This document shows positions 11,231-27,649 of a DNA stretch of 64,000 nucleotides, one piece after another. The DNA lies in IMG/VR virus record IMGVR_UViG_3300022890_000014, positions 1-64,000 of that record. One strand, 5' to 3'. This DNA is from a virus. Position 1 is the stretch's first letter. The number at the start of each line of letters is the position of its first letter. The notes under the pieces are model-generated. The model made no database searches. It was not told where the DNA came from and was given only the letters and a program-made list of their open reading frames with translations. The translations under genes were made by a program, and so were the position numbers.

Positions 11231-11653
11231 CTATTGGACCCCGTATCCTGCTACAGCAGGAGCAGCTAAGACGCCACCGACCATTGCAGCTATACCCTTG
11301 CCACTTTGCAGTTTTTGTATTGCACTAAATGGAACTTTCCCTGACTCAACTAGTGAAACAAGCTCCTTGGCAGGATTAGATGACTTTAATCCATACTCTT
11401 TAATAGCCCTGCCTAAAGCTGGCACAGATATAGCACCAGCCGCAGCACCTCCAGCCATTCCAGTAAGGCCACCAGCAACCAAGCCTTTCTTGAATCCTTT
11501 CCAGCCTTGCCCTTTGTCAGCAACTAAAGCACCAGTTGCCCCACCAATGCCACCACCGAGAAGACCGCCAGCAACCGCACTGCCAGCTATGGCACGACCA
11601 GCAAACCCAGTCTTTGTCATACCTTGATATATTCCTTCATATATTTCATCCAT
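11231..11653 (-). CDS. Leader-bearing glycine-zipper protein
   Basis: 140 aa. The N-terminus (MDEIYEGIYQGMTKTG) carries the shared leader found on eight proteins of this window. The rest is dominated by hydrophobic Gly/Ala segments with GxxxG repeats (about residues 20-48, 58-80 and 118-136), predicting membrane-inserting helices. The RBS GGAGAT 7 nt upstream fixes the start. A promoter-like element lies about 35 nt upstream. A virion internal or membrane-penetrating role is plausible but not shown. Confidence 0.7.
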   Translation of the reverse strand: MDEIYEGIYQGMTKTGFAGRAIAGSAVAGGLLGGGIGGATGALVADKGQGWKGFKKGLVAGGLTGMAGGAAAGAISVPALGRAIKEYGLKSSNPAKELVSLVESGKVPFSAIQKLQSGKGIAAMVGGVLAAPAVAGYGVQ

Positions 11654-11685
11654 AGATAGATCTCCATAGTTGTATTAAAATAAAA

Positions 11686-11706
11686 CATTGATATAATTAT
11701 ACCACA
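11686..11706 (-). promoter_or_regulatory. Extended -10 promoter
   Basis: - strand TGTGGTATAATTATATC: a perfect extended -10 (TGGTATAAT) upstream of the gene starting at 11653. The dispersed palindrome lies just upstream at 11717. Confidence 0.6.
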
Positions 11707-11716
11707 CGATAGTTGC

Positions 11717-11733
11717 TGCGTAAGGCTTACGCA
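11717..11733. repeat. Dispersed palindrome, copy 8
   Basis: Perfect 17-nt copy, central G on +, between two divergent promoter-like elements. Confidence 0.95.
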
Positions 11734-11746
11734 GAGCAATACTAAG

Positions 11747-11766
11747 TGGGTATAAGACTGATAGAG
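11747..11766 (+). promoter_or_regulatory. Phage promoter, GGTATAAG-N5-TAGAG class
   Basis: GTGGGTATAAG then TAGAG after five bases, 36 nt upstream of the 50-aa gene at 11802. Confidence 0.6.
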
Positions 11767-11801
11767 AAGATAAACTTATTTTTTATACAGGAGATAGTAA
11801 A

Positions 11802-11954
11802 ATGGGAAATCTAGTGATAATAGCAACCGCATTCATGCGTGGAAGTTTCAAGGAAGGTGTCGAAGTGACTATTACTGTAATGGAAAGAGGGAAGTGGGGT
11901 AAATACACAGAGAGGGTGAATAAGCTTGGAAGGAGGCTTAGCGCCTTACTATAG
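11802..11954 (+). CDS. Small hypothetical protein (50 aa)
   Basis: A complete 50-codon frame with a strong RBS (AGGAGAT, 7 nt spacing) behind a + strand promoter-like element. The product is basic, with a hydrophobic start and a Lys/Arg-rich C-terminus (RVNKLGRRLSALL). Its 3' end overlaps the end of the convergent gene at 11938 by 17 nt. It is isolated within a long - strand block, which suggests an independently regulated early gene. No family recognised. Confidence 0.65.
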   Translation: MGNLVIIATAFMRGSFKEGVEVTITVMERGKWGKYTERVNKLGRRLSALL

Positions 11955-12846
11955 CTTTGAAAATACCCTTGGCTATGTCTCCGAGACCTTTTGCCCGATG
12001 CAATCCTTTGCCTGCCATTTCTTGAGCAGCACTGGGCGACGAGGACATAAGACCCTCAAGTAGCGTAGCCGCTTCACGTTCACCTATTCCGTGGGTATTT
12101 TTTAGAACTTGCAGTGCTTTGTTCTTTATACCTTTTCCGAATGACTTAGACGTTCTGAACTCTTTATTATTAATTAAGTGTCCAGAGTCTATTGTTGGCA
12201 TAGCTATATGTCCAGATCCAGATATAGCCATAGGTTTTAATGACGCAGGGGCTTTTTCTGCCATCCTTGCTACAGTATTAGCTTTTCCATCTATAGCTCC
12301 AGCAAGTGCCTGCTGGTGTGCTAATAAAGCTCTTTCCTGATGAGGAATTATATCTTGAAGGGTATGTGATGTTTCACCTATATGACCAAGAGCTTGTGTG
12401 TATAGTCTCTGTTGTGCTTTTGGAGCTTTTTCTATAGCTGCTCTTGCCAAAAGGTCTGCTGCATTAGTCCTTCCAGCTTTCATGACATCTCTTATTCCTT
12501 CTTTGGTTCCAGGGAATGCATGTCTTTTCTGTGCAATAGGACTGAGCGGATTCCTTGAGACTCCATCTAGAACATTTGTACCTAAAGATGACACTCCTCC
12601 TAGTATATTAGAGCCAAGCCTGTTCATTTTTCCTGGCTTCGCTGCAAGGCTCTGTGATTTCTCGTACAGTACACCACTTCCTTTTCGTCCGTCTGCTATA
12701 TCAGCACCGTACTCAGTTAGTATATTTCTACCTCTATTTGAAACTCCTAGGCCATCTGAAACACTTTGCATTAATCCAGTGTGACCTTCTTTGCCATAAG
12801 CAGTCTTTGTCATGCCGTATAAAATCCCAGCGTATAAATCATTCAT
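11938..12846 (-). CDS. Leader-bearing hypothetical virion-type protein
   Basis: 302 aa from the ATG at 12846, chosen because it starts the shared leader (MNDLYAGILYGMTKTA); a TTG 15 bases upstream extends the frame but overlaps the previous gene. The remainder is Ala/Gly/Lys-rich and mostly helical, with no recognised enzymatic motif. It sits in a tight run of leader-bearing genes next to the portal. A head-internal or ejected protein is a reasonable guess from context alone. Confidence 0.7.
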   Translation of the reverse strand: MNDLYAGILYGMTKTAYGKEGHTGLMQSVSDGLGVSNRGRNILTEYGADIADGRKGSGVLYEKSQSLAAKPGKMNRLGSNILGGVSSLGTNVLDGVSRNPLSPIAQKRHAFPGTKEGIRDVMKAGRTNAADLLARAAIEKAPKAQQRLYTQALGHIGETSHTLQDIIPHQERALLAHQQALAGAIDGKANTVARMAEKAPASLKPMAISGSGHIAMPTIDSGHLINNKEFRTSKSFGKGIKNKALQVLKNTHGIGEREAATLLEGLMSSSPSAAQEMAGKGLHRAKGLGDIAKGIFKAIVRR

Positions 12847-12850
12847 GTCA

Positions 12851-13336
12851 TTAAACACCAATCATTATATCTGCCATATCCTGAACAGAACCTTTGTTTT
12901 TAAATCGTGGGTCGGCATCCATTCTGTCTAGTCTTTCGGAGATATAGCTGTCAGGTCTAGAATTCATTTCTCCTAGCCTTCCAACTTCTCTGTCTGCCAT
13001 GTTACCACCCATATGTCTGCCGCCAAGTGCTCCACCGAGAGTGCCGAGAGCGCCTCCTATAGCCATCGGAAGTCCGTGTCCACCTTTCATCTTGAACAAG
13101 TTCTTAGCCAAGCCACCAACTCCAGCACCAAGAATACCACCACCAACCCCACCAAGACCAGTGCTAACAGCGCGTGTACGTCTCTTGAATTCCTCTGGAT
13201 CTATATCCCCATAGTAGTCTCGTAGCTCTCCGACTCTATCCTCAGTCGGACTATTGCTACCACCTGGAAGTACATGGAATGGGAAGTCAGAGGCAGATTT
13301 TGTCATTCCTATGTATATACCTTCGTATACACTCAT
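12851..13336 (-). CDS. Leader-bearing glycine-zipper protein
   Basis: 161 aa with the leader MSVYEGIYIGMTKSA. A charged stretch is followed by two Gly-rich hydrophobic segments (about residues 57-78 and 88-112, GLGGVGGGILGAGVGG and similar) and a polar C-terminus with an Arg/Asp-rich tail. The dispersed palindrome ends a few bases before the RBS (AAAGGAT). It probably belongs to the same functional class as the other glycine-zipper leader proteins. Confidence 0.7.
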   Translation of the reverse strand: MSVYEGIYIGMTKSASDFPFHVLPGGSNSPTEDRVGELRDYYGDIDPEEFKRRTRAVSTGLGGVGGGILGAGVGGLAKNLFKMKGGHGLPMAIGGALGTLGGALGGRHMGGNMADREVGRLGEMNSRPDSYISERLDRMDADPRFKNKGSVQDMADIMIGV

Positions 13337-13347
13337 AATACATCCTT

Positions 13348-13364
13348 TGCGTAAGGCTTACGCA
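13348..13364. repeat. Dispersed palindrome, copy 9
   Basis: Perfect 17-nt copy, central G on +; its last bases overlap the end of the helicase gene and it directly precedes the RBS of the gene starting at 13336. Confidence 0.95.
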
Positions 13365-14872
13365 CTTGAAGATACAACGTTTCTCATGTCTCTATTGAGT
13401 CTATTCTTCTCTTCTGAAATACCATTTACCCATTCATCTATTCCTACTTCTTTCCCAGCTATAAATTCTAACAACCCATTTCTAGACTTAGGTTCTGAGT
13501 AATAATTTTTAACTATAAGCTTTCTATCTTCTTCTTTTCGGTTACTTTGACCACCGAGTCTTCTTCCTCTAGCAATAGCTTGATTATTCCTCTCTGGATT
13601 ATAGTGCCTATCCATAGTCATAAACATTGTGGTATCAGGAAGATTAACACCCTCTCCTCCTGCTGGAGTAAGAAGTATAACTTTATCTTTACCGCTATTG
13701 AATCTCTTTACAGCTTCATCTCTATTTTCTTTTGTAGCCCCAAGAGATCCATGACCAGCAAAGATTCCATGATTAATACCCCTATCTTTTAGTCCAGCAT
13801 CCAGAACGTCAGCACCACCTCTGACAAAATTGGTATGAATTGCAACCTGTCCGTCCGGTGTCTTGCCTAGATATTCTTCAAGATCATCTAGCATCTTAGA
13901 TACTTTAGGGGTTTCTTTGGCTCCCTCAGTAAGATCTACATCGCTGTAGAATGGTTCTATAGAATTTGATGCTTGACGAGCCTGTGTAATTATAGAGAAT
14001 ATATGTGAAGCTTCTTTTTGATTGACAGGAAGTCCGTTTCTTATCTTTCTTCTAGTTACTGGATCTAGTCTGCCAAGAGCAAAACTGTATGCTTTGCTTT
14101 GCTTTTTGCTCATTGGAACATACACATTCTCTTCTTCAAGTGCTGGCATTCCACCACCCATATCAGAATGAGTTACATAGTGTATCTTTCCTTTTATCTT
14201 ATCAGCCAAAACCGATTCATTTTTAAGCTTAACTTTTGATACATTTGGTTTCAAGAAACCACTGCTCCTAACTTCTCTTTTTGTGTGCTTCTTCCCGAAT
14301 GTACTTTGACTTCCGAAAGAATGCTCTGGAGAAACTATATCTAAAAGTGGAACTATATCTCTTGGGTGATTTGATATGAATGATCCAGTAACACCAATAA
14401 CATTGTCTACGTTTTCAGATGCATACCTCATAGACTTATTGGTTACAGACTGTGGATCTTTAGCTCTGTGTATTTCGTCTACAATAAGTGTATCAAACTC
14501 ATTGTCTGTCATAACAGATTCTGGATCTCTTCTAAACATTTCCATTGACATCAGACTGTAATCTTTATTCTCACCAACATCACCATAGGTACTATTGGTG
14601 AATTTCTTTATACCATTGTCTCTGAAATTAGTAAGAAGGGATGCAGGCATCAATACTAGTGCTTTCTTAGCTTTCTTCTGCTTTTTAAGCTCTTCAAATC
14701 CAGCTATAGAAGATAACGTCTTCCCTGTTCCTGTATCATGAGCTAGTAAGGCTCTTCCGTTATTCTCTAATATAAAGTCAAGAGCATCCTTCTGGTGTTC
14801 TTTTAACTCTATTGAAGACTTTAGTTTCGATGTCTTTGTCATTCCAGCGAGTATTCCTTGATAAATACTCAT
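13358..14872 (-). CDS. SNF2-like superfamily 2 helicase/ATPase with leader
   Basis: 504 aa. After the shared leader (MSIYQGILAGMTKTS) comes a compact SNF2/DEAD-type ATPase: a Q-like LKEHQKDAL segment, Walker A (AHDTGTGKT, residues 44-52), DEIH at 132-135, a GVTGSF motif III-like element, and a C-terminal lobe with an arginine-finger motif (AIARGRRLGGQ). Such enzymes translocate on duplex DNA or remodel nucleoprotein. Finding one in the portal/structural block with the same leader as presumed virion proteins suggests it may be packaged and act on DNA early after entry (inference). The palindrome precedes its RBS. Confidence 0.88.
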   Translation of the reverse strand: MSIYQGILAGMTKTSKLKSSIELKEHQKDALDFILENNGRALLAHDTGTGKTLSSIAGFEELKKQKKAKKALVLMPASLLTNFRDNGIKKFTNSTYGDVGENKDYSLMSMEMFRRDPESVMTDNEFDTLIVDEIHRAKDPQSVTNKSMRYASENVDNVIGVTGSFISNHPRDIVPLLDIVSPEHSFGSQSTFGKKHTKREVRSSGFLKPNVSKVKLKNESVLADKIKGKIHYVTHSDMGGGMPALEEENVYVPMSKKQSKAYSFALGRLDPVTRRKIRNGLPVNQKEASHIFSIITQARQASNSIEPFYSDVDLTEGAKETPKVSKMLDDLEEYLGKTPDGQVAIHTNFVRGGADVLDAGLKDRGINHGIFAGHGSLGATKENRDEAVKRFNSGKDKVILLTPAGGEGVNLPDTTMFMTMDRHYNPERNNQAIARGRRLGGQSNRKEEDRKLIVKNYYSEPKSRNGLLEFIAGKEVGIDEWVNGISEEKNRLNRDMRNVVSSSA

Positions 14873-14883
14873 GATATATCCTT

Positions 14884-14900
14884 TGCGTAAGGCTTACGCA
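14884..14900. repeat. Dispersed palindrome, copy 10
   Basis: Perfect 17-nt copy, central G on +, immediately upstream of the helicase RBS. A second, shortened copy follows at 14912. Confidence 0.95.
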
Positions 14901-14911
14901 TCCATCTGAAT

Positions 14912-14926
14912 ACGTAAGCCTTACGG
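14912..14926. repeat. Truncated palindrome copy
   Basis: CGTAAGCCTTACG core (13 bp) is intact but the outer bases have diverged; it lies 11 nt from copy 10, in the gap after the portal gene. Confidence 0.8.
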
Positions 14927-14933
14927 TTACTAA

Positions 14934-16877
14934 CTAAGCATTCATGCCTTGTCTTGTTGCTTGTCTTTGCTCTGGAAGTGGAGACATATCAATTCCTTGC
15001 TGCTGAGGCATACCAACTTGCTGCTCTTGTGCGCTTATCGGCATTCCGTTCTGAGCTTGGGACTGCATTACTCCAGGATCAACACCCATAGCACCTGGGG
15101 TCATTCCTGGTTGCATTCCACCAGAGATTTCGTCCATTCTTAGTTCAATGAGTCTTACTAAGTTCGGACTTCTATCTCTAAGAATCTCAAGCATTTGCAT
15201 GCCAATTTCTTGACCCGATCTTCTAATGGTTCTGATGACGGAAGAAACCATATCATCGACGTTAGGATCTCTGTTCCCTTGTCGCCTCATGGCATACTCA
15301 AGGCTTGTCTTGGCCTTACTGTAAATAGCGTCCTTGGTAGAGTTCTCAATCTGAACTTGCATTGCATGCTGTGCGCTACCTTGATACTTAGCACCTAGCA
15401 CCATTTGACGGCCACTTATCTTAGCTTCGACTTCCATAGCCTTTTCTTTATACTTGGAACGAGCTTCTTCTTCAAGTGCTCTCTGCTTCATTTCAGTTTC
15501 CCAGTTCCATCCCCATTGATGTAAGAGGGCCTTAGCAGATAACATTCCCATTCCGTATAGCTGTATAGCTATTTGTTTCTGTTGTGGATCATCAGCCATC
15601 TTGAAGTCGGAGAACTTCACTTCTACAACTGGTATACCAAGATAAGGAGATAGTCTATCCATTACCCATCGAATCATATCTATTACTTGGTCTCTCCAGT
15701 TAAGGAAAGCATTCTCAAGCATTCTAAGACTAACGGAACTACCAGACCAGTTAAGGCCACCAAATACAAACTCAATCGGCGCACCCATTCCACCAGCGAT
15801 CTCTTTCTGTGCCTGATCGATCTCAGGAGTTAACAGAAGTGCTTTTGCATCTCCACCAACTCTCTGAACACCAAGAGGGCTGGACATAATAGCCTTGTGG
15901 TTTATGTCATTTCTATGTCTCTTTAGCTGCTCTGCTACATCACTTCTCCAACTCTTCAGCCCTATTTGCTTAATAGGATTGAATGTAGAAGTTGCCTGCG
16001 GATAGAATATGTCAAGAGGATTAGCTCTATCAACAGCTATAGCTTCTTGGGATTTGTTAAGAATTGTAGCGTAGTGTATCTTTTTATACACAGCCATTGG
16101 AACTGGCTTGCCCCAAGCCTCATCACCATCAGAAAGTCCCATAGTCTTCATGTGGTACATATTGTCATTGTCTATAACAACGAACCTATGCTTCTTCATG
16201 GCCTCTATGTATATGACTGGGATGCCTGCTATCTGATGCTTGTAGCCTTGGTTTATCTTACTTCTATACGAGTCAGGAACTCTATAGAAATATCTTGTCT
16301 TCTCTGGCATTTCTTTAGAGAATGATATAAATACATCCTCTACATCCCAAGAAAGAAGACTGACTCTCTCTCGATCATTAACTGCCATATCGACTGCTGT
16401 ATGTACGTGTCTTGTGTCACATTTATCACAGAAGCAGTAGAAGTTAGGATATTTGAAATCCCAATATGATGCCTGATCTTCCCATGTCTCATTGAAACAC
16501 GATGAGCATATAAACTTTCTTCGTGTTGGGAATCTTACAGACATAAGATGGTTTCCCATAGCGAAGTTGTTTAGTCCAGCATGTATACTGTACGACTTTA
16601 TTTTTAGGTTATCTTCCAGTATCCTTTTCCATGTCTTGCATAGCTTCTGGTTCTTGTCGCTAAACATGATGTCTGTAATAGCATACTGGGAGAACTTTCT
16701 TATAATAGCGGATACGATACTATGCCCGTAAAAAAACCTTTTAGCAGTAGAGAACAGTTCTCTTGCGCTTTGTGGGTGATATGTCGAGGCAATATCCAGA
16801 TAAGGATTTGAATATTTTATGTACGGATTATTTGAAGTACCCGTAAAAGAACCTGCTGTGGTTGTTATTGCAGACAT
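14934..16877 (-). CDS. Portal protein
   Basis: 647 aa. The central region has features of phage portals: a helical stem/wing region with NRANPLDIFYPQ and GGMGAPIEFVFGG-like segments, a long helix-rich C-terminal domain and a Gln/Met/Pro-rich tail. Portals form the dodecameric ring at one vertex through which DNA is packaged and ejected. An unusual insertion around residues 120-160 carries two CxxC pairs (CSSC and CDKC), which could bind zinc. It lies in the middle of the leader-bearing gene block; terminase and capsid genes must be outside this window. Confidence 0.8.
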   Translation of the reverse strand: MSAITTTAGSFTGTSNNPYIKYSNPYLDIASTYHPQSARELFSTAKRFFYGHSIVSAIIRKFSQYAITDIMFSDKNQKLCKTWKRILEDNLKIKSYSIHAGLNNFAMGNHLMSVRFPTRRKFICSSCFNETWEDQASYWDFKYPNFYCFCDKCDTRHVHTAVDMAVNDRERVSLLSWDVEDVFISFSKEMPEKTRYFYRVPDSYRSKINQGYKHQIAGIPVIYIEAMKKHRFVVIDNDNMYHMKTMGLSDGDEAWGKPVPMAVYKKIHYATILNKSQEAIAVDRANPLDIFYPQATSTFNPIKQIGLKSWRSDVAEQLKRHRNDINHKAIMSSPLGVQRVGGDAKALLLTPEIDQAQKEIAGGMGAPIEFVFGGLNWSGSSVSLRMLENAFLNWRDQVIDMIRWVMDRLSPYLGIPVVEVKFSDFKMADDPQQKQIAIQLYGMGMLSAKALLHQWGWNWETEMKQRALEEEARSKYKEKAMEVEAKISGRQMVLGAKYQGSAQHAMQVQIENSTKDAIYSKAKTSLEYAMRRQGNRDPNVDDMVSSVIRTIRRSGQEIGMQMLEILRDRSPNLVRLIELRMDEISGGMQPGMTPGAMGVDPGVMQSQAQNGMPISAQEQQVGMPQQQGIDMSPLPEQRQATRQGMNA

Positions 16878-16891
16878 GTATAAATCCTAAA

Positions 16892-16908
16892 TGCGTAAGG
16901 CTTACGCA
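16892..16908. repeat. Dispersed palindrome, copy 11
   Basis: Perfect 17-nt copy, central G on +, overlapping the last codons of the gene at 16902 and preceding the portal RBS. Confidence 0.95.
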
Positions 16909-17600
16909 GTAAATAGTCCTATGTTTCTGACCTGCCTCAGTCCCTTTAGAACTCTGTTCTTACACCACAGCTTACCGGCTTCCATCTTCAAGACTTGGGT
17001 AGACACAGCATCAGTGCTAGGTAGATCTAATATTTCCTGCTTCTTCTCTTCGTTGTTCCAAGCTTCTAAAACTTTCCTGTTAAGTTCAACAGCGTTGGAG
17101 TCAGAGGGTGAAAGCTCAATCATTTTATCATTTATCATGTGACCATTCAAGTTGTCCCCTACAGGACAAGCAACGAAACCCTGATCTATAAGGCAACATG
17201 CTATGTAAGTAATCACTTGCTCACTTATCCCGACTCCGATGCTCTCTGCAATATTATAAATATCCTCGAAGACATTCAGGGTGTACCATATCTCACCTAG
17301 GCTAGGTTTCTGCAATACGCCAAAGTCGTGAGCTATTCCAGCAAACGCCTGAGTTGTATCACCGAATATGTCTGCCTCAACCCAGGGAACAAAATGAGTA
17401 TCTTCCTCTAGTGCCTGATTCATACAGGCGGCAGTAGCGAAGATAGCACTCCATCTGTTGTCTGGAAGTGGCTCACCTATTTCTTGTCGGAATGTTTCAG
17501 GCTCCCACTCATACCACTTGCCTTCAAGATACTTATTGAACAGAGCTTTTATATAGATAGGAGTTGGATCTGATATAGACATTATCTCTTGTACGCTCAT
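16902..17600 (-). CDS. Hypothetical portal-adjacent protein
   Basis: 232 aa, acidic, mostly alpha-helical by composition, with no signal peptide or recognised domain. It overlaps the upstream gene by an ATGA junction and is followed directly by the portal gene, so a role in head assembly or the connector region is likely by position only. Cysteines are scattered and do not form a metal motif. Confidence 0.65.
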   Translation of the reverse strand: MSVQEIMSISDPTPIYIKALFNKYLEGKWYEWEPETFRQEIGEPLPDNRWSAIFATAACMNQALEEDTHFVPWVEADIFGDTTQAFAGIAHDFGVLQKPSLGEIWYTLNVFEDIYNIAESIGVGISEQVITYIACCLIDQGFVACPVGDNLNGHMINDKMIELSPSDSNAVELNRKVLEAWNNEEKKQEILDLPSTDAVSTQVLKMEAGKLWCKNRVLKGLRQVRNIGLFTA

Positions 17601-18601
17601 GTTACATCTAATCCTGCGACTGGGGTTGTTTGGTTTGATTTCAGGAAGTCAATAGGTCTAAGGTATTTTCTAGCCTTACCTTTTCTGAAGTCTAGCTTAT
17701 CGTATACAAAACCAAGAATACCTGTGCATATTGAAGACTTAGGTTTTTTTACTATTTCTTCTCTAATTCCACCACCACCAAGAGCGGCAAGATATAAGTT
17801 TCTATCAGAATAAGGAATACCCACAAGAGTTTTTGCTGTATTAACAGCCTTCTCTCTTTCTTTCTGTTTCACATCTGGCCTAACAGCGAGCATATCTTTA
17901 TTTAGCTTTGCCATGCTGTTTACCGAATGTATCCTGACCTTCTTTTTGCTGCCAGGTACATACTGTCCAAATGACTTTATTCCCTCGTAGGAATGAAGCA
18001 TCTTTCCTTCGCCAACATAGATGCCAGCGTGGGTCCATTTTGAGCCAGTAGTTATCTTACTAAGTGTATTCCAGATCTTTTCGCCTACACCAGCCTTACT
18101 CTCATTAGCACTAGTGAGAATTATGTCACCTGGCTCTAAGTGTTCAAGAAACTTCTTTGTTTTCTTCTCTACAGTTAGATCCATATCTCTTAGTTCTGCA
18201 AGACTGGCAGTCTTTTGCGACTCTTTCCAGTGAGGCTCAAGCACTACGTTTGCCCAGTCACCTCTGAATGGAACAGCCCTATCATCTATATAGTGGTCTG
18301 CTATTACTTTTCCTGAAGAGTTAGGAGGCTGGTCTGGACTTTCGTTTATGTAATCATACGGAAGGTCGTGAGCCTCCATATATCTAGCCATACCTTCTTT
18401 ATCGCCTCTCACAGAGAAGACTATGATTCTATAGCCTTGTGCCCGTAGGCTATCTAAGCCTTCTTTTGCACCTTCAGTAAGAGGTCCGTATCCACCTTCA
18501 CCAGGATTTATCTGTATGGTATCATCAAAGTCAACAGCAACGGTCTTTTGCCGTGCCGCAGTCTTGGTCATGCCAAGGAAGATTCCATCATAGATGCTCA
18601 T
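17597..18601 (-). CDS. Leader-bearing HAD phosphatase fused to a papain-like amidase domain
   Basis: 334 aa in three parts. The leader MSIYDGIFLGMTKTA is followed by a HAD-type domain with the DxDxT motif (D24-F-D26-D-T28) and IDDRAVPF; small phage HAD domains of this type often act as 5'-nucleotidases or polynucleotide phosphatases. From about residue 135 there is a permuted NlpC/P60 (YiiX-like) domain with GDIIL, a likely catalytic His in THAGIYVG and a Cys in SSICTGIL. In the family the permuted fold cleaves amide or acyl bonds. The pairing of a nucleotide phosphatase and a possible cell-wall or lipid hydrolase in one leader-bearing chain is unusual. Confidence 0.8.
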   Translation of the reverse strand: MSIYDGIFLGMTKTAARQKTVAVDFDDTIQINPGEGGYGPLTEGAKEGLDSLRAQGYRIIVFSVRGDKEGMARYMEAHDLPYDYINESPDQPPNSSGKVIADHYIDDRAVPFRGDWANVVLEPHWKESQKTASLAELRDMDLTVEKKTKKFLEHLEPGDIILTSANESKAGVGEKIWNTLSKITTGSKWTHAGIYVGEGKMLHSYEGIKSFGQYVPGSKKKVRIHSVNSMAKLNKDMLAVRPDVKQKEREKAVNTAKTLVGIPYSDRNLYLAALGGGGIREEIVKKPKSSICTGILGFVYDKLDFRKGKARKYLRPIDFLKSNQTTPVAGLDVT

Positions 18602-18611
18602 GATATGCTTC

Positions 18612-19076
18612 CTAGTCTGATAAAAGTTTGTATAGTCCGACGCCAGTTAGCCCAGCCATTCCAGCTAGACCGATGTTTCTGGCTATGTTTTTGGATCTAG
18701 TCAATTTTGCCATGTCGTCTGTTAGATTCTCAGCTAAAAGCTTTGCTTCCATAGCTTCGTTTGCAGCAACACCAGGAGCGCCAGTTGCATATAATTGAAT
18801 CGGATTTCTTTTCTTCAACTGGTCACTAAATATACCCTTGGCTTTTTCTCCAAGATTCATAATCTTGTCATCGCTTCCTACTATTGCTCTATCTAGGGAT
18901 TTTCCTAATTGACCTTGCCTTCCTGCGTCATAAGACCAGCCACCAAGTCCAGCGCCAGCGGTTACAGCAGATGCTAATCCCAGTAGGTTCTCTGGTAAGT
19001 CTTCAGCAGGAGGAAGATTATTAACTATGTTAGCAGTCTTGGTCATGCCAAGGAAGATACCTGTATATATGTTCAT
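18612..19076 (-). CDS. Leader-bearing hypothetical membrane-type protein
   Basis: 154 aa with the leader MNIYTGIFLGMTKTA. The DNA of the leader is nearly identical to that of the gene at 17597, pointing to a recent duplication of the 5' end. A Gly/Ala-rich hydrophobic segment lies around residues 30-50, and another at the C-terminus (NIGLAGMAGLTGVGLYKLL). Its ATG overlaps the stop of the Nudix gene (ATGA). No function recognised. Confidence 0.68.
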   Translation of the reverse strand: MNIYTGIFLGMTKTANIVNNLPPAEDLPENLLGLASAVTAGAGLGGWSYDAGRQGQLGKSLDRAIVGSDDKIMNLGEKAKGIFSDQLKKRNPIQLYATGAPGVAANEAMEAKLLAENLTDDMAKLTRSKNIARNIGLAGMAGLTGVGLYKLLSD

Positions 19077-19591
19077 TTTATTTTTTCCTTTAGATTTCTT
19101 AGTGCTTCGGACTCAAGCATACTAAGGTCAGAGAACTCACCACCAGACTTACCATATCGCTCTTGTCTTTTTATTGCTGTATCGATATTGATCCATTTTC
19201 CGTTCTTGAACTGATCTCCTTCGACACCAAAAAGGGAGTCATCTTTTTTATCGAATCTTCCTGCCCTAAAATACTGCTTATTGCCAGTAAAGTTTCTTCC
19301 CTTTTTCTTTGCTTTAGCTATCATTTCTTTAGACCACCTAATGTTTGAGGAGTCCACTCCGACTCCGTGGACATCTTTTAGTCTAAGTCCTGCCTCTTCT
19401 AATACTTCCATTCTAGCAGCTTGATTTATAGAGTTGTTGTTATCAACTCCACCGCCAGGGAATCTAAGTGTGTCTCTGTAGGGGCTTTCCTCTGCAAAGA
19501 CCTGTCCTTTATCATTGTACACAAAAACACCAACTCTTCTGCGAAGCTTGGCAGATTTTGTCATGCCAAGAAAGATGCCTTGATAAATCAT
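19073..19591 (-). CDS. Leader-bearing Nudix hydrolase-like protein
   Basis: 172 aa: leader MIYQGIFLGMTKSA, then a Nudix fold with GVFVYNDKGQVFAEE and a Nudix box at about residues 46-69. The core EVLEEAGL is kept, but the usual Arg before the first Glu is Met, and the Glu five residues after the glycine is replaced by Asn/Ser. Active Nudix enzymes hydrolyse nucleoside diphosphate derivatives; the substitutions make activity uncertain. The gene is part of the leader-bearing operon next to the portal. Confidence 0.82.
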   Translation of the reverse strand: MIYQGIFLGMTKSAKLRRRVGVFVYNDKGQVFAEESPYRDTLRFPGGGVDNNNSINQAARMEVLEEAGLRLKDVHGVGVDSSNIRWSKEMIAKAKKKGRNFTGNKQYFRAGRFDKKDDSLFGVEGDQFKNGKWINIDTAIKRQERYGKSGGEFSDLSMLESEALRNLKEKIK

Positions 19592-19603: not shown

Positions 19604-19620
19604 TGCGTAAGGCTTACGCA
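19604..19620. repeat. Dispersed palindrome, copy 12
   Basis: Perfect 17-nt copy, central G on +, overlapping the end of the gene at 19614 and abutting the RBS of the Nudix gene. Confidence 0.95.
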
Positions 19621-20771
19621 CTGGGAACTTCTTGGATTACTGGTGCTTCAGACATATCAATCCCACCACCGACAGATGGAATCATTGCAGCTATACCAGC
19701 TTGGTCTGGCTTAGGAAGTGAGGAAAGGATGGATACTGGATCAGATTGAATAGAATTCCAGAGTGTAGGGCCGTAGCTTGCAATGAACGTTTCTTTAGGG
19801 ATAGAACGGATCTGAGACTCAGTTACTTGAGTATCACCAAGAGTCATTGATTGTTCTGCTACCTTTGTGATATATCCACCATGAGTCGCTGCATATGGAT
19901 CGTCGATAGATTTGTCGTAGTATCTGTGGAGACCAGCAGCCTTATCAAGCTCAATCATTGCAGCGCAAGAGTTGTTAGCTCCAAGTTGATTAGCCTGCTT
20001 ATGAAGAGTCATAAATGGTGAACTGTCTATCTTGAACTCATCACAAAGGTTGAGTCTCTGAGCGATGTTCTCATCGAATCTTGAGCCGAAGCCGACACCA
20101 GCGTATTTAGCAATGGTGGGATTCATAAAGCTATCAAGTTGTCCGAACTCATCTGCTCTTGAGGCAACCTTGCATGAGAACTCAAAGCGTTCTTCTGGAG
20201 TGAATGAGTTTGCATTCTTATCTAAATACGCAGCGGCAACCTTGACTTGATCTATTTCGTGGAGAGGGTATCTATTGCGGATATTCGTGAGACCCCAGAA
20301 TCTTTTGTTACTATCAACGTTATTGTTAGTTGAAGCCACCTTTTGAATAGAAGGCATGCTGTACTCGAAGTCTTTAGCTCCTTCAACCCAAGTGTTACCC
20401 ATGCTCGGGAAGTCTTCTGCAATCTTGTGCATTGCTGGATTCACAGGGACATCCATTGCGGTTGCAGCCTTAGATATGTTTGCTCCAGCTATAGCCTGCA
20501 TTGCGTTGTTTAGTTCGCCAGCGGTTTTCATGAAGTACATGCCAGACATAAAGACCTGATTTCTATCAGACAAGGGGAAGTATTTCTTGACGCCACCAGT
20601 CTTTGTTATAAACACTAGTCCGAACTGGTCATCTCTCAGTACCTCTCTTTCCTCTGTGGAAAGAAGCTTTACAGAGGATGCTGTTTTCATAAGAGTATCT
20701 TTATCAATGTGCGCAGTAAGTTCTTTGAATATTGACAGGCCAGGGTCATCATATACATCGATTATAGACAT
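19614..20771 (-). CDS. Hypothetical virion-type protein
   Basis: 385 aa. The protein is soluble, helix-rich, without recognised catalytic motifs, and contains several KTA/KIA-type segments and a Pro-rich C-terminus. It is the first gene of the - strand operon that runs through the Nudix, HAD, portal and helicase genes, and it has the best promoter of that group just upstream. By position it may be a head or head-tail structural protein; I could not assign a family. Confidence 0.68.
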   Translation of the reverse strand: MSIIDVYDDPGLSIFKELTAHIDKDTLMKTASSVKLLSTEEREVLRDDQFGLVFITKTGGVKKYFPLSDRNQVFMSGMYFMKTAGELNNAMQAIAGANISKAATAMDVPVNPAMHKIAEDFPSMGNTWVEGAKDFEYSMPSIQKVASTNNNVDSNKRFWGLTNIRNRYPLHEIDQVKVAAAYLDKNANSFTPEERFEFSCKVASRADEFGQLDSFMNPTIAKYAGVGFGSRFDENIAQRLNLCDEFKIDSSPFMTLHKQANQLGANNSCAAMIELDKAAGLHRYYDKSIDDPYAATHGGYITKVAEQSMTLGDTQVTESQIRSIPKETFIASYGPTLWNSIQSDPVSILSSLPKPDQAGIAAMIPSVGGGIDMSEAPVIQEVPSA

Positions 20772-21582: not shown

Positions 21583-21589
21583 TGGTATA

Positions 21590-21610
21590 TGGTATAAGAG
21601 ATTTACTGTA
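21590..21610 (+). promoter_or_regulatory. Phage promoter, TGGTATAAG class
   Basis: TGGTATAAG; the downstream TAG block is weaker (TTTACTG) than in its relatives. It precedes the three to four gene unit at 21642-23794. Confidence 0.55.
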
Positions 21611-21641
21611 AACAATTAACAAAAATAGACAAGGAGATGCT

Positions 21642-22723: not shown

Positions 22724-22724
22724 C

Positions 22725-22741
22725 TGCGTAAGCCTTACGCA
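22725..22741. repeat. Dispersed palindrome, copy 14
   Basis: Perfect 17-nt copy, central C on +, 1 nt after the stop of 21917-22723 and just before the RBS of the next gene. Confidence 0.95.
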
Positions 22742-22754
22742 AACGGAGATAGAT

Positions 22755-23450
22755 ATGCCATTTGATGTCTTTGAACACCACAAACTATTCTTGTTCGATG
22801 AGCTAAACGATACAGCTAAAGAGGCTGCCATCATGGAGTATCGGTACGACTTTCAGGATTTCGATTTCCTTATGTATAATGATTGGTTCTTCAACTTTTC
22901 TGAAGATGAATGGAAGTCTGTCATGTCGGAAATCAGAATGCCTGAAGACACTGTTCAGCCTGAACGAATACTCAAATGGGACAGAATCTCATCAGCATCC
23001 ATGATGGTTCCATCTATGGAACTTAAGGGAGTAAGTATTGATGGTGATGCCCTGGAAATGTTCTATAAGATCATAGGCATACATGGCACTGTTTTGGCCG
23101 ACGACAGTGTATCGGAAATTAAATTTGTATCAAATGTGTTTAGAAATTCGGCCACGAATATTGAATTTGAGCTAGATGATTATGACTTTACAGAAGATAA
23201 AGTTGAGCAAATCGAGAAACTTAAAAGATCTGCTAAGGTAAAGTTTGAAGAGCATTTCATGCTTAGGGCTGCAAGAGCTATGAGGGATAGCTATGATGAT
23301 ATGACTAGTGATGAGTATGTTGCTAACGAACTCATAGAAAGAGAGATTGTGTTCTATGTGGATGGATGCGTCGGAAACTTCAAATGGGACACAAAAGAGT
23401 TGATAGAAACAACCAAGATAACTAAGATAGAGGATCTAGAGGTAATGTAA
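22755..23450 (+). CDS. Hypothetical protein, FDEL-x-D-x-AK N-terminal type
   Basis: 231 aa from the ATG at 22755 (GGAGAT 6 nt upstream; the longer frame would start inside the previous gene and read through the palindrome). The N-terminus LFLFDELNDTAKEAA resembles a motif common at the start of many phage proteins of unknown function. The rest is acidic with repeated Asp/Glu clusters. It ends in a TAATG overlap with the HTH gene, so the pair is probably co-expressed. Confidence 0.7.
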   Translation: MPFDVFEHHKLFLFDELNDTAKEAAIMEYRYDFQDFDFLMYNDWFFNFSEDEWKSVMSEIRMPEDTVQPERILKWDRISSASMMVPSMELKGVSIDGDALEMFYKIIGIHGTVLADDSVSEIKFVSNVFRNSATNIEFELDDYDFTEDKVEQIEKLKRSAKVKFEEHFMLRAARAMRDSYDDMTSDEYVANELIEREIVFYVDGCVGNFKWDTKELIETTKITKIEDLEVM

Positions 23451-23794
23451 TGAACGAGAGGTTCGGTGAGATGCTTTGTAGGATTAGGCTACAGTTTGGA
23501 TTCTCTGCCATATTCATAGCTAGAACCATAGGGTTCACCAGAGGGTATATATGTGATGTTGAGAAAGGCAACAAGACACCTAGTCCTAACTGGCTAATCA
23601 AAGTCGCAGGTATCTTGAATCCGTCCACTAAAGATATAGAAAAACTTGGACACTTGCTCGTATCAGAAAGACAAAAGTTCCATTTCTTGTGTGCTGGTAA
23701 AACCCAAAGTGAGATTGAATTCATAAAGGATTTGCATGGACTTTGGTGCAAAGGAGAGATTAAGAAGTCTGATATAGAGGCTTTGTTGGAGTAG
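23450..23794 (+). CDS. XRE-type helix-turn-helix regulator
   Basis: 114 aa. Residues about 5-60 form a helix-turn-helix of the Cro/C1 (XRE) type: LCRIRLQFGFSAIFIARTIG followed by a recognition-helix region (TRGYICDVEKG) and the typical NW-L-KVA-ILN continuation. The C-terminal 45 residues are a helical extension that may dimerise. As a phage-encoded DNA-binding protein it is one candidate ligand for operator-like repeats in this genome, although no link to the palindrome is shown. Coupled to the gene before it. Confidence 0.85.
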   Translation: MNERFGEMLCRIRLQFGFSAIFIARTIGFTRGYICDVEKGNKTPSPNWLIKVAGILNPSTKDIEKLGHLLVSERQKFHFLCAGKTQSEIEFIKDLHGLWCKGEIKKSDIEALLE

Positions 23795-23840
23795 GTGTAT
23801 CACTCGGAATCTATTGTTCAGATGGGTTCTGAGTCACCTA
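23792..23840 (+). terminator. Long imperfect hairpin after the HTH gene
   Basis: TAGGTG (including the stop codon) pairs with CACCTA, and inside it CTCGGAATC pairs with GGTTCTGAG through two wobbles. A short T-rich stretch follows. It may end transcription of the + unit or stabilise its 3' end. Confidence 0.5.
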
Positions 23841-24173
23841 TTTCTTCTGGAGGATATTTTTTAGAAAATAGTCTGGTTCGCCACGAACAGCCAGGGTGGT
23901 TCATTTTGTGAGTTTGTTCTGAATAGCTAATATGTACTGACATGACTACAATAGAGCTATTTAGTTATTGATTCTTGAAGTCAATTACTTTATAGGTCGT
24001 GGCGTTTGGTCAGTCCAAGTTTTCTTTCTTATCATAGACACCATCTTGCTCTCTCCATACTTGCTGCATCCTGGTGGCTGAGTTTTACCACTTCTGAATA
24101 CATAGGGGTTGCCAAAAATAACCACAGCACTGTTCCGTTGGTGACTACTTACTCTCTTCCTTGTAGGACAGCA
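23841..24173. other. Gene-less convergent gap
   Basis: About 330 nt between convergent units with no frame having a usable start and RBS. Small hairpins are visible (GTTCG-CCA-CGAAC near 23877, and ATTGA/TCAAT near 23966). I see no promoter-like element. Confidence 0.6.
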
Positions 24174-24794
24174 CTATCGGATTGTAAACGATCCACGTAT
24201 AGATGGTTTCATTATCCGTACTGTCCGGTGAGTGGGAATCTTCAATGCAGTCATAGATCCCCCTCTAAATGCTACTAGTGCGGTTAGATTGGAATTGCTA
24301 GTTCCTAGCTTATCTAGTGCAGCTTTTGCAGCGACTATAACCACAGTAGTCACGACAATGCCTACTCCTACGCCTATTAAGACGAAGGTGATACGCTGAC
24401 CTTTATACTTGCTAACTAAAGCTCTTTGTCTTTCCACTTCTCCAGCATGTAAGACTAAAGACTTGGCCTGCTTATCTATTACAATCTTGGCCTTTTTTGC
24501 TACGGTAGCACTAGCAACGGCAGCTTTCTTTGCAGCAACCGCTCTTGTCTTCCATAGTTCAATGAGCGTATCCTTTGTCTTGCTCTGCTGTTTAAGGCCA
24601 GGCACTATTCCTCGGAGTCCATTAAGTTCTGTTTTATCTAGAAGAATCTTTCTGCCAGTTTCAAGAGAGAAGCAGTACGAGTCTGCCTTCTTTCCTCTTC
24701 TTGCTTTGATACAGATTCCTTTTCTTGCTGAATGTGCATTTGTTGATATGGCAAAAGCCAAAATCATTGCGATTAGAAATATAAGTTTCTTCAT
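24174..24794 (-). CDS. Secreted protein with internal membrane anchor
   Basis: 206 aa. Residues 1-22 are a classic signal peptide (KK, hydrophobic core, AHSA cleavage-type site). A central Ala/Lys-rich helical region, likely coiled coil, is followed by a transmembrane segment at about residues 134-160 (LIGVGVGIVVTTVVIVAA) and a basic tail. Placed directly downstream of a spanin-like gene, it may be part of a lysis or envelope-disruption module, but it lacks the Pro-rich lipoprotein form of a typical o-spanin. Confidence 0.65.
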   Translation of the reverse strand: MKKLIFLIAMILAFAISTNAHSARKGICIKARRGKKADSYCFSLETGRKILLDKTELNGLRGIVPGLKQQSKTKDTLIELWKTRAVAAKKAAVASATVAKKAKIVIDKQAKSLVLHAGEVERQRALVSKYKGQRITFVLIGVGVGIVVTTVVIVAAKAALDKLGTSNSNLTALVAFRGGSMTALKIPTHRTVRIMKPSIRGSFTIR

Positions 24795-24805
24795 ATCTAT
24801 GTCCT

Positions 24806-24822
24806 TGCGTAAGCCTTACGCA
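24806..24822. repeat. Dispersed palindrome, copy 15
   Basis: Perfect 17-nt copy, central C on +, between the secreted protein gene and the spanin-like gene. Confidence 0.95.
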
Positions 24823-24865
24823 TAGTGTATTCCGTTAATGTCGATTGTGTCAATTCTTCTCATTT

Positions 24866-25297
24866 TCAGTAACCTTCCTTTTTGAGTTGTTCAAGAACCT
24901 TATCTTCCGACATTTTCTTAACTTTATCAACAGCTTTCTTTGCTGTTCTTTCCATTGACATAATCTCTTTAGTGGCTACCTGAGAGTTTTTTGTCAACAG
25001 ATTTATCTGTCTTATAGTTTCTTGTTCTATATGTGCAAGTATTGCATTGGCTTCTTCTGCCTTCTTGACAGCCTTGTTGTACTCCACTTTTGACTTCTCT
25101 ATAGCTATACGAGACTTTGTAAGCAGTCTAGACTGATATGCATTGCATGACCACTGCCAGCCATTGCTACCAAGCGACATAGTGAGTAGTATGAACAAGA
25201 CGATTACTTTAGGGCTTGAGAAAAAGTATAGTAATGCAGGTGAAATATATGACCAGATGATTCCAATAATGCTCTTTGTATTTTCCATGTTATCCAT
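24866..25297 (-). CDS. Inner-membrane spanin-like protein
   Basis: 143 aa with a single N-terminal transmembrane segment (about residues 28-45, KVIVLFILLTMSLG), followed by about 95 residues of Lys/Glu/Ala-rich coiled coil and a charged C-terminus. This layout is that of Rz-type i-spanins, which span the periplasm of Gram-negative hosts and fuse inner and outer membranes in the last step of lysis. No holin or endolysin neighbour was recognised, so the assignment rests on topology. Confidence 0.55.
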   Translation of the reverse strand: MDNMENTKSIIGIIWSYISPALLYFFSSPKVIVLFILLTMSLGSNGWQWSCNAYQSRLLTKSRIAIEKSKVEYNKAVKKAEEANAILAHIEQETIRQINLLTKNSQVATKEIMSMERTAKKAVDKVKKMSEDKVLEQLKKEGY

Positions 25298-25360
25298 GAC
25301 TGACTCCTTTGTTGATTTCTTATATAGTACACCATAACAGCAGGAGTAGTCAAGGTGTTT

Positions 25361-26095
25361 CTAAAATAGGTCAGGTTTAGTTTTTTTCTTCCTAGGTCTT
25401 CTGTCAAGCCCACTTGGTATCTTTATTCCTTCTGGCTCTGGCGTGTCGTCGTCTATCTCTTCGGTGACAATTGGCTCACTAGTAGGTTTATAATTTTTAT
25501 CTCCAGATATTTTTCTCTCTCCAGCGGTAGTTAGTCTGTTTAGTATTCCAGAAAATGATCCTTTCTTGCTTCCAGCTTCTATGTCTTTACTAAAGAAAAA
25601 CAGGAGAGCGAATACTAGAAGTCCAACAACTTCCCACATTTGTAATGGGTAGAACTTGACATCCTGAATATGCATCCATGCTCTTGTCTTCTTAGATTCC
25701 GTAGTCTTCTTTGGGTAGTATTTTGCCCTTGTTTTTATCTTTACGTACCCGTTTCTTTTGGATACCTGCTCAGTGTTGATAGAGTTGGCTATACTTATCT
25801 CTGGGCCTAGCTTCAGTCCTTTGACCTCCATACCACCTAGAAACATACGTGCTATGACTGCGAGTGAGCCAAGCACGAACATTGTTCTCGATGAGGAGAA
25901 TCTTACTCTGACTACGACTCCATCTTGAATCTCAGAGTAAAAGAATAGACCTTTGAATATAGTCCTAGGAAGAAATAATAGCTCCATAAACATAGAGGCT
26001 AAGGATGCAATAAGTCCAAGTATACACTTCTTTACTTTCTTAGCATACTTGCTTGTCGTTTTCTGGATATAGGTATACCACTTGGTTTTGCTCAC
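25361..26095 (-). CDS. Hypothetical multi-pass membrane protein
   Basis: 244 aa starting at a GTG (AAGGAA 7 nt upstream; no usable ATG nearby). Three hydrophobic segments (about residues 22-50, 72-90 and 150-170) predict a membrane protein, with a charged Pro/Lys-rich C-terminus. It lies between the spanin-like gene and the tail-protein operon, with a palindrome copy at its 5' end. A lysis or superinfection role is possible by position only. Confidence 0.65.
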   Translation of the reverse strand: MSKTKWYTYIQKTTSKYAKKVKKCILGLIASLASMFMELLFLPRTIFKGLFFYSEIQDGVVVRVRFSSSRTMFVLGSLAVIARMFLGGMEVKGLKLGPEISIANSINTEQVSKRNGYVKIKTRAKYYPKKTTESKKTRAWMHIQDVKFYPLQMWEVVGLLVFALLFFFSKDIEAGSKKGSFSGILNRLTTAGERKISGDKNYKPTSEPIVTEEIDDDTPEPEGIKIPSGLDRRPRKKKTKPDLF

Positions 26096-26107
26096 AACAC
26101 TATTCCT

Positions 26108-26123
26108 TGCGTAAGGCTTACGC
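26108..26123. repeat. Dispersed palindrome, copy 16
   Basis: 16-nt copy (final A replaced by G), overlapping the stop-codon region of the gene at 26118. Confidence 0.93.
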
Positions 26124-26966
26124 GATGGTTGTTAATTCTTTATTGGTTACTGCCGGTACAGCGAAGGTCTTTGACAGGCTGGATGCTGGTATCTCGATTC
26201 TGACACGTTGGGTTTGTGTTAGTTCTATTTGGAAGAATCCAGAGTTGTTCGATCTAGTAGATCTTCTTTTATTATCTATTACATCGTTATCTGAAGAAAC
26301 TATGTCTAGTGGATACGCATGCACTTCAGAGTTCTTTATAGGATCTCCTGATGCATTAACTGTATATCCCCACAAGACACATTTGTTTGGAGAAGACGGA
26401 GACCTAATAAGGTTCCTTTGGGCGACTATTGTATCTGTAGTAGTAGCTCCTGACACAACAAGTTCGTATGGTGTGCCAGAAAAATCATGAAGCTTCTTGA
26501 AAGGCACTAGCTGATACGTCCCAGGATTAAGCCCAAAGATAACAGATCCAGACTGGAGGGTTTTAACAACCCCGAATATAACAGTCTGTGTTTCATTCTG
26601 GATGCTTATCTCTACATTCTCAACTGGATCTGCATCTTGATCCTCTACGGATATTGTAACCATAGATGTTCCGAGAGGAATCAGCATATCATCTATATCC
26701 ACAGAGTTAACTATGAATACAGATTCAAAAGCAAGCTCCATAGTGGTTCTTCTGACACCAACGAACCACACGCCTACTGAATCTGGTGTATAAGAAGCTA
26801 CATAGTGACCCGAACCAATCTCTGACACTACAACGGCTACAGCACTAGCTACACCGTTTTTATATACATACTTAACAAAGTCAGTATTAGTTAGGCCCAC
26901 CACTGGTGCTAATGCTACGAACACGCTGAAGACATACTTTATTTCATTGCCTGCTTTTGTGTTCAT
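26118..26966 (-). CDS. Carboxypeptidase-regulatory-like beta-sandwich protein
   Basis: 282 aa. The chain looks all-beta and includes a carboxypeptidase-regulatory-like element (DPVENVEISIQN ... LNPGTYQLVPFKK), a fold common in surface-exposed phage and bacterial proteins. The C-terminal third (SSPNKCVLWGYTV ... GFFQIELTQTQ) is clearly related to the C-terminus of the protein at 27662, so the two are paralogues. Its start overlaps the stop of the glycine-zipper gene upstream. Likely a virion decoration or fibre-associated protein. Confidence 0.7.
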   Translation of the reverse strand: MNTKAGNEIKYVFSVFVALAPVVGLTNTDFVKYVYKNGVASAVAVVVSEIGSGHYVASYTPDSVGVWFVGVRRTTMELAFESVFIVNSVDIDDMLIPLGTSMVTISVEDQDADPVENVEISIQNETQTVIFGVVKTLQSGSVIFGLNPGTYQLVPFKKLHDFSGTPYELVVSGATTTDTIVAQRNLIRSPSSPNKCVLWGYTVNASGDPIKNSEVHAYPLDIVSSDNDVIDNKRRSTRSNNSGFFQIELTQTQRVRIEIPASSLSKTFAVPAVTNKELTTIA

Positions 26967-27289
26967 ACCAGTTTCACCTTAGCCATCTCAGCTTCGTTTA
27001 TTTTCAATAGGGCTACTGCTTCATTTAAGCCTTCTTTAGCTCCCTCTTTAACATCAGGCCATACGCCTTTTGCTTCATGAGCTATACCCTTAAACCCTTC
27101 GGCTAATCCAGGTACGCTCATTCCAGCTAGCCCACCACCGATACCAAAAAGTATTCCTCTAAGAATATCAGAGTCGTCTTCGTCTCCAGTATATACACCA
27201 AGCGCCGCGCCACCAGCTACCCCAGGTATCATACCGTATAGCATTCTTTCGGTAAGACCTGTTATTGGTTTCATTGTTGGAGAACTCAT
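26963..27289 (-). CDS. Glycine-zipper membrane-type protein
   Basis: 108 aa from the ATG at 27289 (AAGGA 6 nt upstream; a TTG two codons earlier is less likely). Two Gly-rich hydrophobic segments lie at about residues 18-34 (GMIPGVAGGAALG) and 45-62 (GILFGIGGGLAG), followed by an amphipathic Lys/Glu helix. It lacks the full shared leader but otherwise resembles the other glycine-zipper proteins of the window. Confidence 0.65.
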   Translation of the reverse strand: MSSPTMKPITGLTERMLYGMIPGVAGGAALGVYTGDEDDSDILRGILFGIGGGLAGMSVPGLAEGFKGIAHEAKGVWPDVKEGAKEGLNEAVALLKINEAEMAKVKLV

Positions 27290-27301
27290 ATTCAATCCTT
27301 A

Positions 27302-27318
27302 TGCGTAAGGCTTACGCA
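27302..27318. repeat. Dispersed palindrome, copy 17
   Basis: Perfect 17-nt copy, central G on +, directly upstream of the RBS of the gene at 26963. Confidence 0.95.
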
Positions 27319-27322
27319 GGGC

Positions 27323-27649
27323 TTAGGAAAGTGCAACGCCACCACCAACACCAGTTCCGACAGCGCCAACACCGGCTGTGACGCCACCTGTAATCTTTAA
27401 CTTCTTTTTCATTTCTGGAGTCATCTTGCTAAACTCAGACTTAACACCCTTGCCTATCTGTTTTATCTTACCAATAGTTCTTCCGACCAAACCAGGAGCG
27501 TCCTTTCCCATATGCTCCACGGCAGCACCATATGCTCTACTTCCACCTTTCCCTCCTCTAACTAGCTTGCCGAGTGCAGTACCTATACCAGTGAACGCGT
27601 CAGCTTGCTTAGTCATGCCTAGAAAGATTCCTTGATACATCTCATCCAT
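27323..27649 (-). CDS. Leader-bearing Gly/Lys-rich protein
   Basis: 108 aa with the leader MDEMYQGIFLGMTKQA, the only leader copy outside the 11-20 kb block. The rest is basic and Gly-rich with a hydrophobic C-terminal segment (GGVTAGVGAVGTGVGGGVAL) fitting a glycine zipper. It sits between two paralogous beta-sandwich genes in the tail region, so the leader is not confined to the portal neighbourhood. Function unknown. Confidence 0.7.
   Translation of the reverse strand: MDEMYQGIFLGMTKQADAFTGIGTALGKLVRGGKGGSRAYGAAVEHMGKDAPGLVGRTIGKIKQIGKGVKSEFSKMTPEMKKKLKITGGVTAGVGAVGTGVGGGVALS

Follow-up and report, generated by a model that had tools for sequence, protein, structure and literature searches.

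Eight open reading frames (ORFs) in a 64,000-nucleotide stretch of DNA from a large, uncultivated bacteriophage, positions 1-64000 of the 150,744-bp virus record IMGVR_UViG_3300022890_000014 and referred to here as the window, begin with the same short peptide, and three more carriers lie outside the window. The proteins behind this leader are either unclassified or belong to different families. We consider it very likely that the leader is a capsid-targeting propeptide on the plan known from bacteriophage T4, which would bring its carriers into the phage head and be removed there by a protease of lysine type.

The leaders were noticed in a first-pass annotation of the window, and all eight were recovered at the ORFs named there, every one of them opening a protein encoded on the minus strand; the three additional carriers came from extending the motif search to the rest of the genome, as that annotation had proposed. 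The carriers are listed below, with an arrow marking the putative cleavage point.

11612..11653, minus strand: leader MDEIYEGIYQGMTK↓ of ORF 11231-11653, 140 residues, glycine-rich body
12805..12846, minus strand: leader MNDLYAGILYGMTK↓ of ORF 11938-12846, listed earlier as starting with TTG at 12861
13298..13336, minus strand: leader MSVYEGIYIGMTK↓ of ORF 12851-13336, 161 residues, glycine-zipper-like
14834..14872, minus strand: leader MSIYQGILAGMTK↓ of ORF 13358-14872, SNF2 helicase
18563..18601, minus strand: leader MSIYDGIFLGMTK↓ of ORF 17597-18601, HAD-like domain and C92/NlpC papain-like amidase
19038..19076, minus strand: leader MNIYTGIFLGMTK↓ of ORF 18612-19076, 154 residues
19556..19591, minus strand: leader MIYQGIFLGMTK↓ of ORF 19073-19591, Nudix hydrolase
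27608..27649, minus strand: leader MDEMYQGIFLGMTK↓ of ORF 27323-27649, 108 residues, glycine-rich
109544-110350 (HEIGH motif), 111372-112091 and 126226-126486, minus strand: carriers beyond the window

The second of these had been assigned the TTG start; its leader is present, and its true start is probably the ATG at 12846, which yields MNDLYAGILYGMTK. Over the whole contig the core motif G-I-x-x-G-M-x-K occurs 11 times, always on the minus strand and at a protein start, while its reversed control does not occur at all. The consensus, M-x(0-2)-[IVLM]-Y-x-G-I-x-x-G-M-T-K↓[TSQR]-[AGS], defines a leader of 11-14 residues. The residue following the lysine had been given as T, S or Q, which holds as far as it goes, and R must be added; the second residue past the lysine is A, G or S.

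When the 11 copies are compared, identity at codon positions 1, 2 and 3 amounts to 83, 88 and 45%, respectively, and at the invariant residues the third positions are 41% identical. The DNA at bases -45 to -16 from the tyrosine codon shows 28% identity. Because synonymous codons vary freely and the upstream DNA is so dissimilar, the similarity of the leaders is due to a constraint on the protein and not to a recently copied DNA segment. The YxGIxxG part is conserved as strictly as the part around the putative cleavage site, across unrelated bodies.

Exact leaders were also sought elsewhere. A degenerate DNA pattern for the leader matched eight places in the 2.9 million contigs of the IMG/VR collection, none of them the start of a plausible protein; 84,980 bacterial and archaeal genomes yielded four matches which look like chance. 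Near relatives of the source may be missing from both collections. These scans, with chance matches only, thus brought up no close relative bearing the leader, and a text search of the literature for the motif strings gave no match.

Among the carriers, the SNF2 and Nudix assignments of the first-pass annotation are solid (Pfam E-values 1.6e-22 and 5.5e-11, respectively). Its HAD/papain fusion holds in part: the papain-like C92/NlpC domain falls slightly under the Pfam cut-off and is backed by homologues, and the HAD domain is deduced from a DFDDT motif and a PHROG match. The small leader proteins gave no match in Pfam or PHROGs. For the Nudix body no relative was seen in 30 records, in a search that lacked a positive control and is hence uninformative. 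Between the HAD-like and C92 domains of ORF 17597-18601 lies the sequence SQK↓TAS, which resembles SQK↓TAT of the phage's own protease, so that cleavage in the head may split the fusion into two proteins. An HE(I/L)GH metallopeptidase-like motif stands behind a leader in three phages, in the contig ORF 109544-110350, in a 254-residue ORF of relative L243 and in a 279-residue ORF of relative L135; the contig ORF looks like its HELGH counterparts and homology is not established. A secretion signal was rejected on inspection of the leaders, which have neither a positively charged N-region nor a long hydrophobic core. In an AlphaFold model of the window's SNF2 protein, with a mean predicted local distance difference test (pLDDT) score of 80, residues 1-17 form the longest segment below 50 and lie outside the helicase fold, a modelled placement that would be expected of a detachable tag.

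Leaders of different sequence and the same layout occur in related phages. Single-sequence queries with the capsid and portal proteins found no match in IMG/VR, and a capsid profile built from three sequences retrieved 129 relatives there. Their main leader is [AS]-F-x-D-E-L-x-K↓I-A, and unrelated proteins of one contig have N-termini in common: LWDAFHDELEK↓LA occurs twice in L115, EGF(S/H)DEL(T/E)K↓LG recurs within L034, (T/A)AF(D/Q)DEL(V/M)K↓IA within L111, and MNHFEFGFFDEL(Q/E)K↓IA stands on two different proteins of L237. A minimal form, M-x-(L/M/V)-I-E-K↓(L/I/V)-A, is present on several small proteins of L035 and L036. In 20 records the pattern FxDELxK[ILM][AG], aimed at leaders of the form [AG]FxDELxK↓[LI]A, gave 42 matches, near the start of many different proteins, as against none for reversed controls. 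In IMG/VR as a whole FxDELxK↓IA is found in at least 124 distinct ORFs, at least 71 of which carry it inside the first 15 residues, and these ORFs represent at least 92 or so body families by single-linkage clustering.

Homologous bodies carry different leaders in different phages. The SNF2 protein begins here with MSIYQGILAGMTK↓TS, in G002/L111 with LTAFEDELEK↓EA and in L176 with TTAFVDELEK↓IA, and both of the latter phages have other FxDELxK leaders or sites; the corresponding N-termini are MNKYL(V/E)K↓IA in L116/L117 and ELFDYSIK↓SA in L121. The C92 amidase is preceded here, ahead of the HAD domain, by IYDGIFLGMTK↓TA, and its homologues begin with SSFADELEK↓IA in G003/L138 (26-29% identity, E-value 6e-15) and LLFAELRK↓VA in G013/L151 (E-value 6e-15). 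By these comparisons the leader goes with the lineage of the phage rather than with the body behind it, as would be predicted for an address tag read by each lineage's own scaffold.

The end of the leader coincides with a motif, [LIMFV]-x-K↓x-A, that is enriched in head proteins. The leader carriers are located in or near the head gene blocks. The following genes were assigned on the contig.

14934..16877, minus strand: portal protein candidate, homologous to the portal of Salmonella phage Arash, without an [LIMFV]xKxA site
19614..20771, minus strand: inner-head or core protein candidate, with 10 [LIMFV]xK↓xA sites against 0.66 expected
103848 and 104586: tail tube and tail sheath, respectively, assigned by eye
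114612-115550: major capsid protein (phrog_2522, E-value 9.5e-9, and homology to the Arash capsid protein)
120156-123620: head-maturation protease (phrog_18299, E-value 6.5e-5), with HHHNNKDP and TSMG present
128706-130682: large terminase (phrog_675, E-value 2e-45)

The protease gene contains an intein-like insertion with a LAGLIDADG domain directly past the TSMGLRVPFD active-site region; the proteases of Arash and of relative L034 have no insertion.

With expected counts obtained by shuffling, the motif occurs 84 times in minus-strand proteins where 41 are expected, and 21 times in plus-strand proteins against 20. In an unbiased ranking of the 400 possible residue pairs at P1, the position before the putative cut, and P2', the second position after it, behind a hydrophobic residue at P3, the K/A pair comes first in the head block (49 against 13.7 expected, z 9.5), with 42 against 13.6 expected once the leaders are removed, and it is absent from the top ranks in tail and plus-strand proteins. 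Over the capsid loci of 80 relatives K/A again leads by a wide margin (1146 against 358, z 41.7). Individual head-block ORFs with an excess of sites include 118484-119179 (5 against 0.4) and 126489-127586 (6 against 0.64). A related control on T4 head proteins, ranking the residues at P1 where P3 is hydrophobic and P1' small, returned glutamate (27 against 8.5), which is the experimentally known P1 specificity in T4.

The motif is also present in the N-terminal arm of the capsid protein, which reads GGLHK↓AAAATRNF in this phage, QGLVK↓EAGAAMSAF in Arash, QGLTK↓EAGAAMSTF in Vibrio phage D181 and EELVK↓LAEAGGAF in L034, with K↓(I/L/V)A in many other relatives. Proteases of Arash, D181 and relatives have a site near their own N-terminus (GGLTK↓QA, AGLEK↓SA, VFEK↓TAS), that of the present phage has only the weaker SQK↓TAT, and scaffold-like proteins of relatives are full of the motif. 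The leader end M-T-K↓(T/S/Q/R)-(A/G/S) fits it; three of the 11 copies have G or S where the motif has A. The motif is most simply read as the cleavage site of the putative lysine-type head-maturation protease.

Site-rich ORFs between the protease and capsid genes hold the same module as the leaders. Scaffold candidates of relatives contain GFHDELSK↓LA (L034), GFMEELEK↓TA (L113) and GFHDELGK↓IA (L035), and ORF 118484-119179 of the phage studied here contains GYFDELTK↓FA and starts with SLYNTMTK↓TA, which resembles the leader end. ORF 119578-120090 is a second scaffold candidate of this phage. As the module is shared with scaffold candidates, the leaders may imitate a scaffold segment.

Taken as a capsid-targeting propeptide, the leader would dock each carrier into the scaffold core of the prohead during head assembly, presumably by a short amphipathic stretch in which Tyr and Ile lie three residues apart. 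The head-maturation protease would then cut after the lysine of M-T-K↓, as it would in the major capsid protein and the scaffold, and the freed bodies (SNF2, Nudix, HAD/C92 amidase, HExxH-motif and glycine-rich proteins) would remain in the head and probably be ejected with the DNA. That the leader is a packaging or targeting tag, cut after MTK and similar to the T4 leader, had been put forward in the first-pass annotation, and comparative sequence evidence supports all three suggestions, through the leaders of the same plan in relatives, the lineage-specific leaders on homologous bodies and the agreement of the leader end with the probable consensus of the head protease in the phage and its relatives. 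Proteomic data from Arash bear on one of the bodies: Gp217, the SNF2 homologue, was identified in its virion by 38 unique peptides and 1148 spectra, a number close to the 1333 of the capsid protein (PMC10585845), and this abundance speaks for SNF2 being a virion protein in the phage group.

Several observations weigh against packaging by the leader. The SNF2 proteins of Arash and its near relatives have no leader and, as Arash packages its SNF2 protein nevertheless, the leader is not obligatory; in L113/L130 the SNF2 protein has a site (FTQYLGLEK↓TG) without that phage's FxDELxK leader, and in L114/L115 it is fused to other domains. At least two of the FxDELxKIA ORFs, a transketolase-like protein of L210 and one of L205, are probably coincidences. 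Moreover, the putative lysine specificity derives solely from conservation of the motif, and T4, phiKZ, SPN3US and phage P1 cut after glutamate. The Arash and L113/L130 proteins would also suit an explanation in which the leader acts purely as a propeptide that holds the body in an inactive or soluble state up to its removal by the protease at maturation, with head entry depending on other parts of the protein; so would the fact that the part of the leader matching other head proteins is its cleavage half, M-T-K↓x-A. We consider this unlikely, since cleavage alone would not need a YxGIxxG part as strictly conserved as the site across unrelated bodies, and each related phage likewise repeats the part ahead of the site. 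The opposite possibility, that the leader is a docking helix kept uncut and anchoring proteins to the portal or the inner capsid wall, accords with a helix predicted at low confidence for residues 2-12 of the SNF2 leader and with the ability of the T4 targeting sequence to target without processing (PMC9026906), and is rendered very improbable by the strict K↓x-A end that coincides with sites in the capsid protein, protease and scaffold.

Sorting into a phage nucleus-like compartment, the alternative raised in the first-pass annotation, found no support. Several bodies are nucleic acid or nucleotide enzymes (SNF2, Nudix), and that is all that speaks for it; no homologue of the phiKZ nuclear-shell protein gp54 (chimallin) was detected among the ORFs of the contig, which may not be a complete genome, in a family which diverges so strongly that a member could be missed. 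The leader ends in a head-maturation site, its genes lie in or near the head block, and an amidase and small glycine-rich proteins are unlikely nuclear cargo, so we give this explanation hardly any credence. We attach equally little weight to an origin of the leaders in duplication of the 5' ends of genes, by which promoter, ribosome-binding site and initial codons would be shared and the peptide itself would have no role. Several leader genes do adjoin, and some share an upstream 17-bp palindrome, but the nearly free third codon positions behind fixed amino acids and the divergent upstream DNA, together with the occurrence of three leader genes in distant clusters and of peptides in relatives that differ and keep the layout, already largely refute it.

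The closest parallel to a capsid-targeting propeptide of this kind is the T4 capsid-targeting sequence of IPI, IPII, IPIII and the Alt propeptide, cut by gp21, which is likewise a short N-terminal propeptide (about 10 residues) on unrelated head cargo and has a distinct end for processing that agrees with the consensus of the T4 head protease. The ten N-terminal residues of IPIII are enough for packaging; residues 4 and 7 are important to targeting and residues 8 and 10 to processing, and the sequence is modular enough to package foreign proteins (PMC9026906). In the T4 leader MKTYQEFIAE, taken from the genome, the aromatic/hydrophobic pair Y4 and F7 are three residues apart, as are Y and I here. 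The T4 end is [LI]xE, whereas here it is the putative [LIMFV]xK↓xA, and no sequence homology is established; descent from the T4 internal-protein leader was rejected by comparison with the IPI and IPIII N-termini, the end being M-T-K and not L/I-x-E. Unlike T4, the present phage has at least 11 carriers, including large enzymes, and related phages use other leaders (FxDELxK↓IA).

In phage P1 an N-terminal signal of 10-30 residues on DarB, within its first 30 residues, is enough for a reporter to enter the capsid (PMC9024508). It was studied on one very large protein and not as a short repeat on many, and the P1 capsid protein is cut after glutamate (E120↓S121), where lysine is predicted here. 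As is proposed for the phage in question, the heads of phiKZ and SPN3US contain a virion RNA polymerase as well as ejection proteins, and their prohead protease removes propeptides with repeated sites (PMC5694885, PMC10052503); unlike here, it cuts at S/A-x-E, with glutamate at P1, the propeptides are mostly long, and identical N-termini are noted only for the paralogous pair gp53/gp54. Arash and the Vibrio phages D69, D148 and D181 are distant relatives with homologous portal and capsid proteins. Arash and D181, which were checked, share the GL(V/T)K↓EA capsid arm and show many K↓xA sites in their protease and scaffold-like proteins; Arash differs in its leaderless SNF2 protein, and no shared-leader set was noticed in it. 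The present system would differ from the known ones in its putative cleavage after lysine, in how many proteins carry the leader and in leader sequences that are particular to each lineage. Since trypsin has the same preference for lysine, ordinary tryptic proteomics would hide such sites, which may be why they were overlooked.

Two other loci in the window may contribute to the virion.

2278..9861, minus strand: fused RNA polymerase beta-beta', 2527 residues, with a LAGLIDADG intein-like insertion
51815..52885, minus strand: sigma-70-like protein (PHROG 351, E-value 5e-8)

A sigma factor and the RNA polymerase subunits beta and beta' are also reported from the Arash virion (PMC10585845), and by homology to the Arash beta and beta' subunits the fused protein is a candidate virion RNA polymerase; it carries a site, YLEK↓QA, near its N-terminus. 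The sigma-70-like protein has an N-terminal extension and four head-protease-type sites in its first 165 residues, which suggests a packaged and matured virion sigma factor, and the two proteins look like a virion transcription set.

The 17-bp near-palindrome TGCGTAAGSCTTACGCA is present in 54 exact copies in the contig, 28 of them in the window (positions include 10345, 13348, 14884, 16892, 19604, 27302, 44371, 46219 and 56956). It is mostly intergenic, often within 50 bp of a gene start, with two copies inside the RNA polymerase gene at 4156 and 8959, and it may be an operator, a promoter or an element for transcript processing. The MRKAYA/MRKPYA peptides that keep appearing in spurious ORFs are products of this repeat. 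Four tandem paralogues of 262-297 residues at contig positions 98840-102370, with repeated L-T-x-D-Q-x-A-S-x-P-like segments, are probably tail-fibre-like.

A more general reading, to which we give about an even chance, is that a large group of uncultivated phages of about 100-210 kb use lineage-specific and interchangeable capsid tags which copy a segment of the phage's scaffold and finish with a protease site of lysine type, the phage studied here having swapped the common FxDELxK↓IA for its own YxGIxxGMTK↓TA. Any gene acquiring such a tag would be loaded and delivered, so that the sets of virion and injected proteins could be read from sequence. If the capsid-targeting explanation is right, the short removable capsid leader would extend from T4-like phages, and the phage P1 signal, to a large and almost unstudied group; it would provide a rule for predicting the head-carried proteins of such phages, including the many body families found behind FxDELxK↓IA, and a portable set of tags for loading proteins into large capsids.

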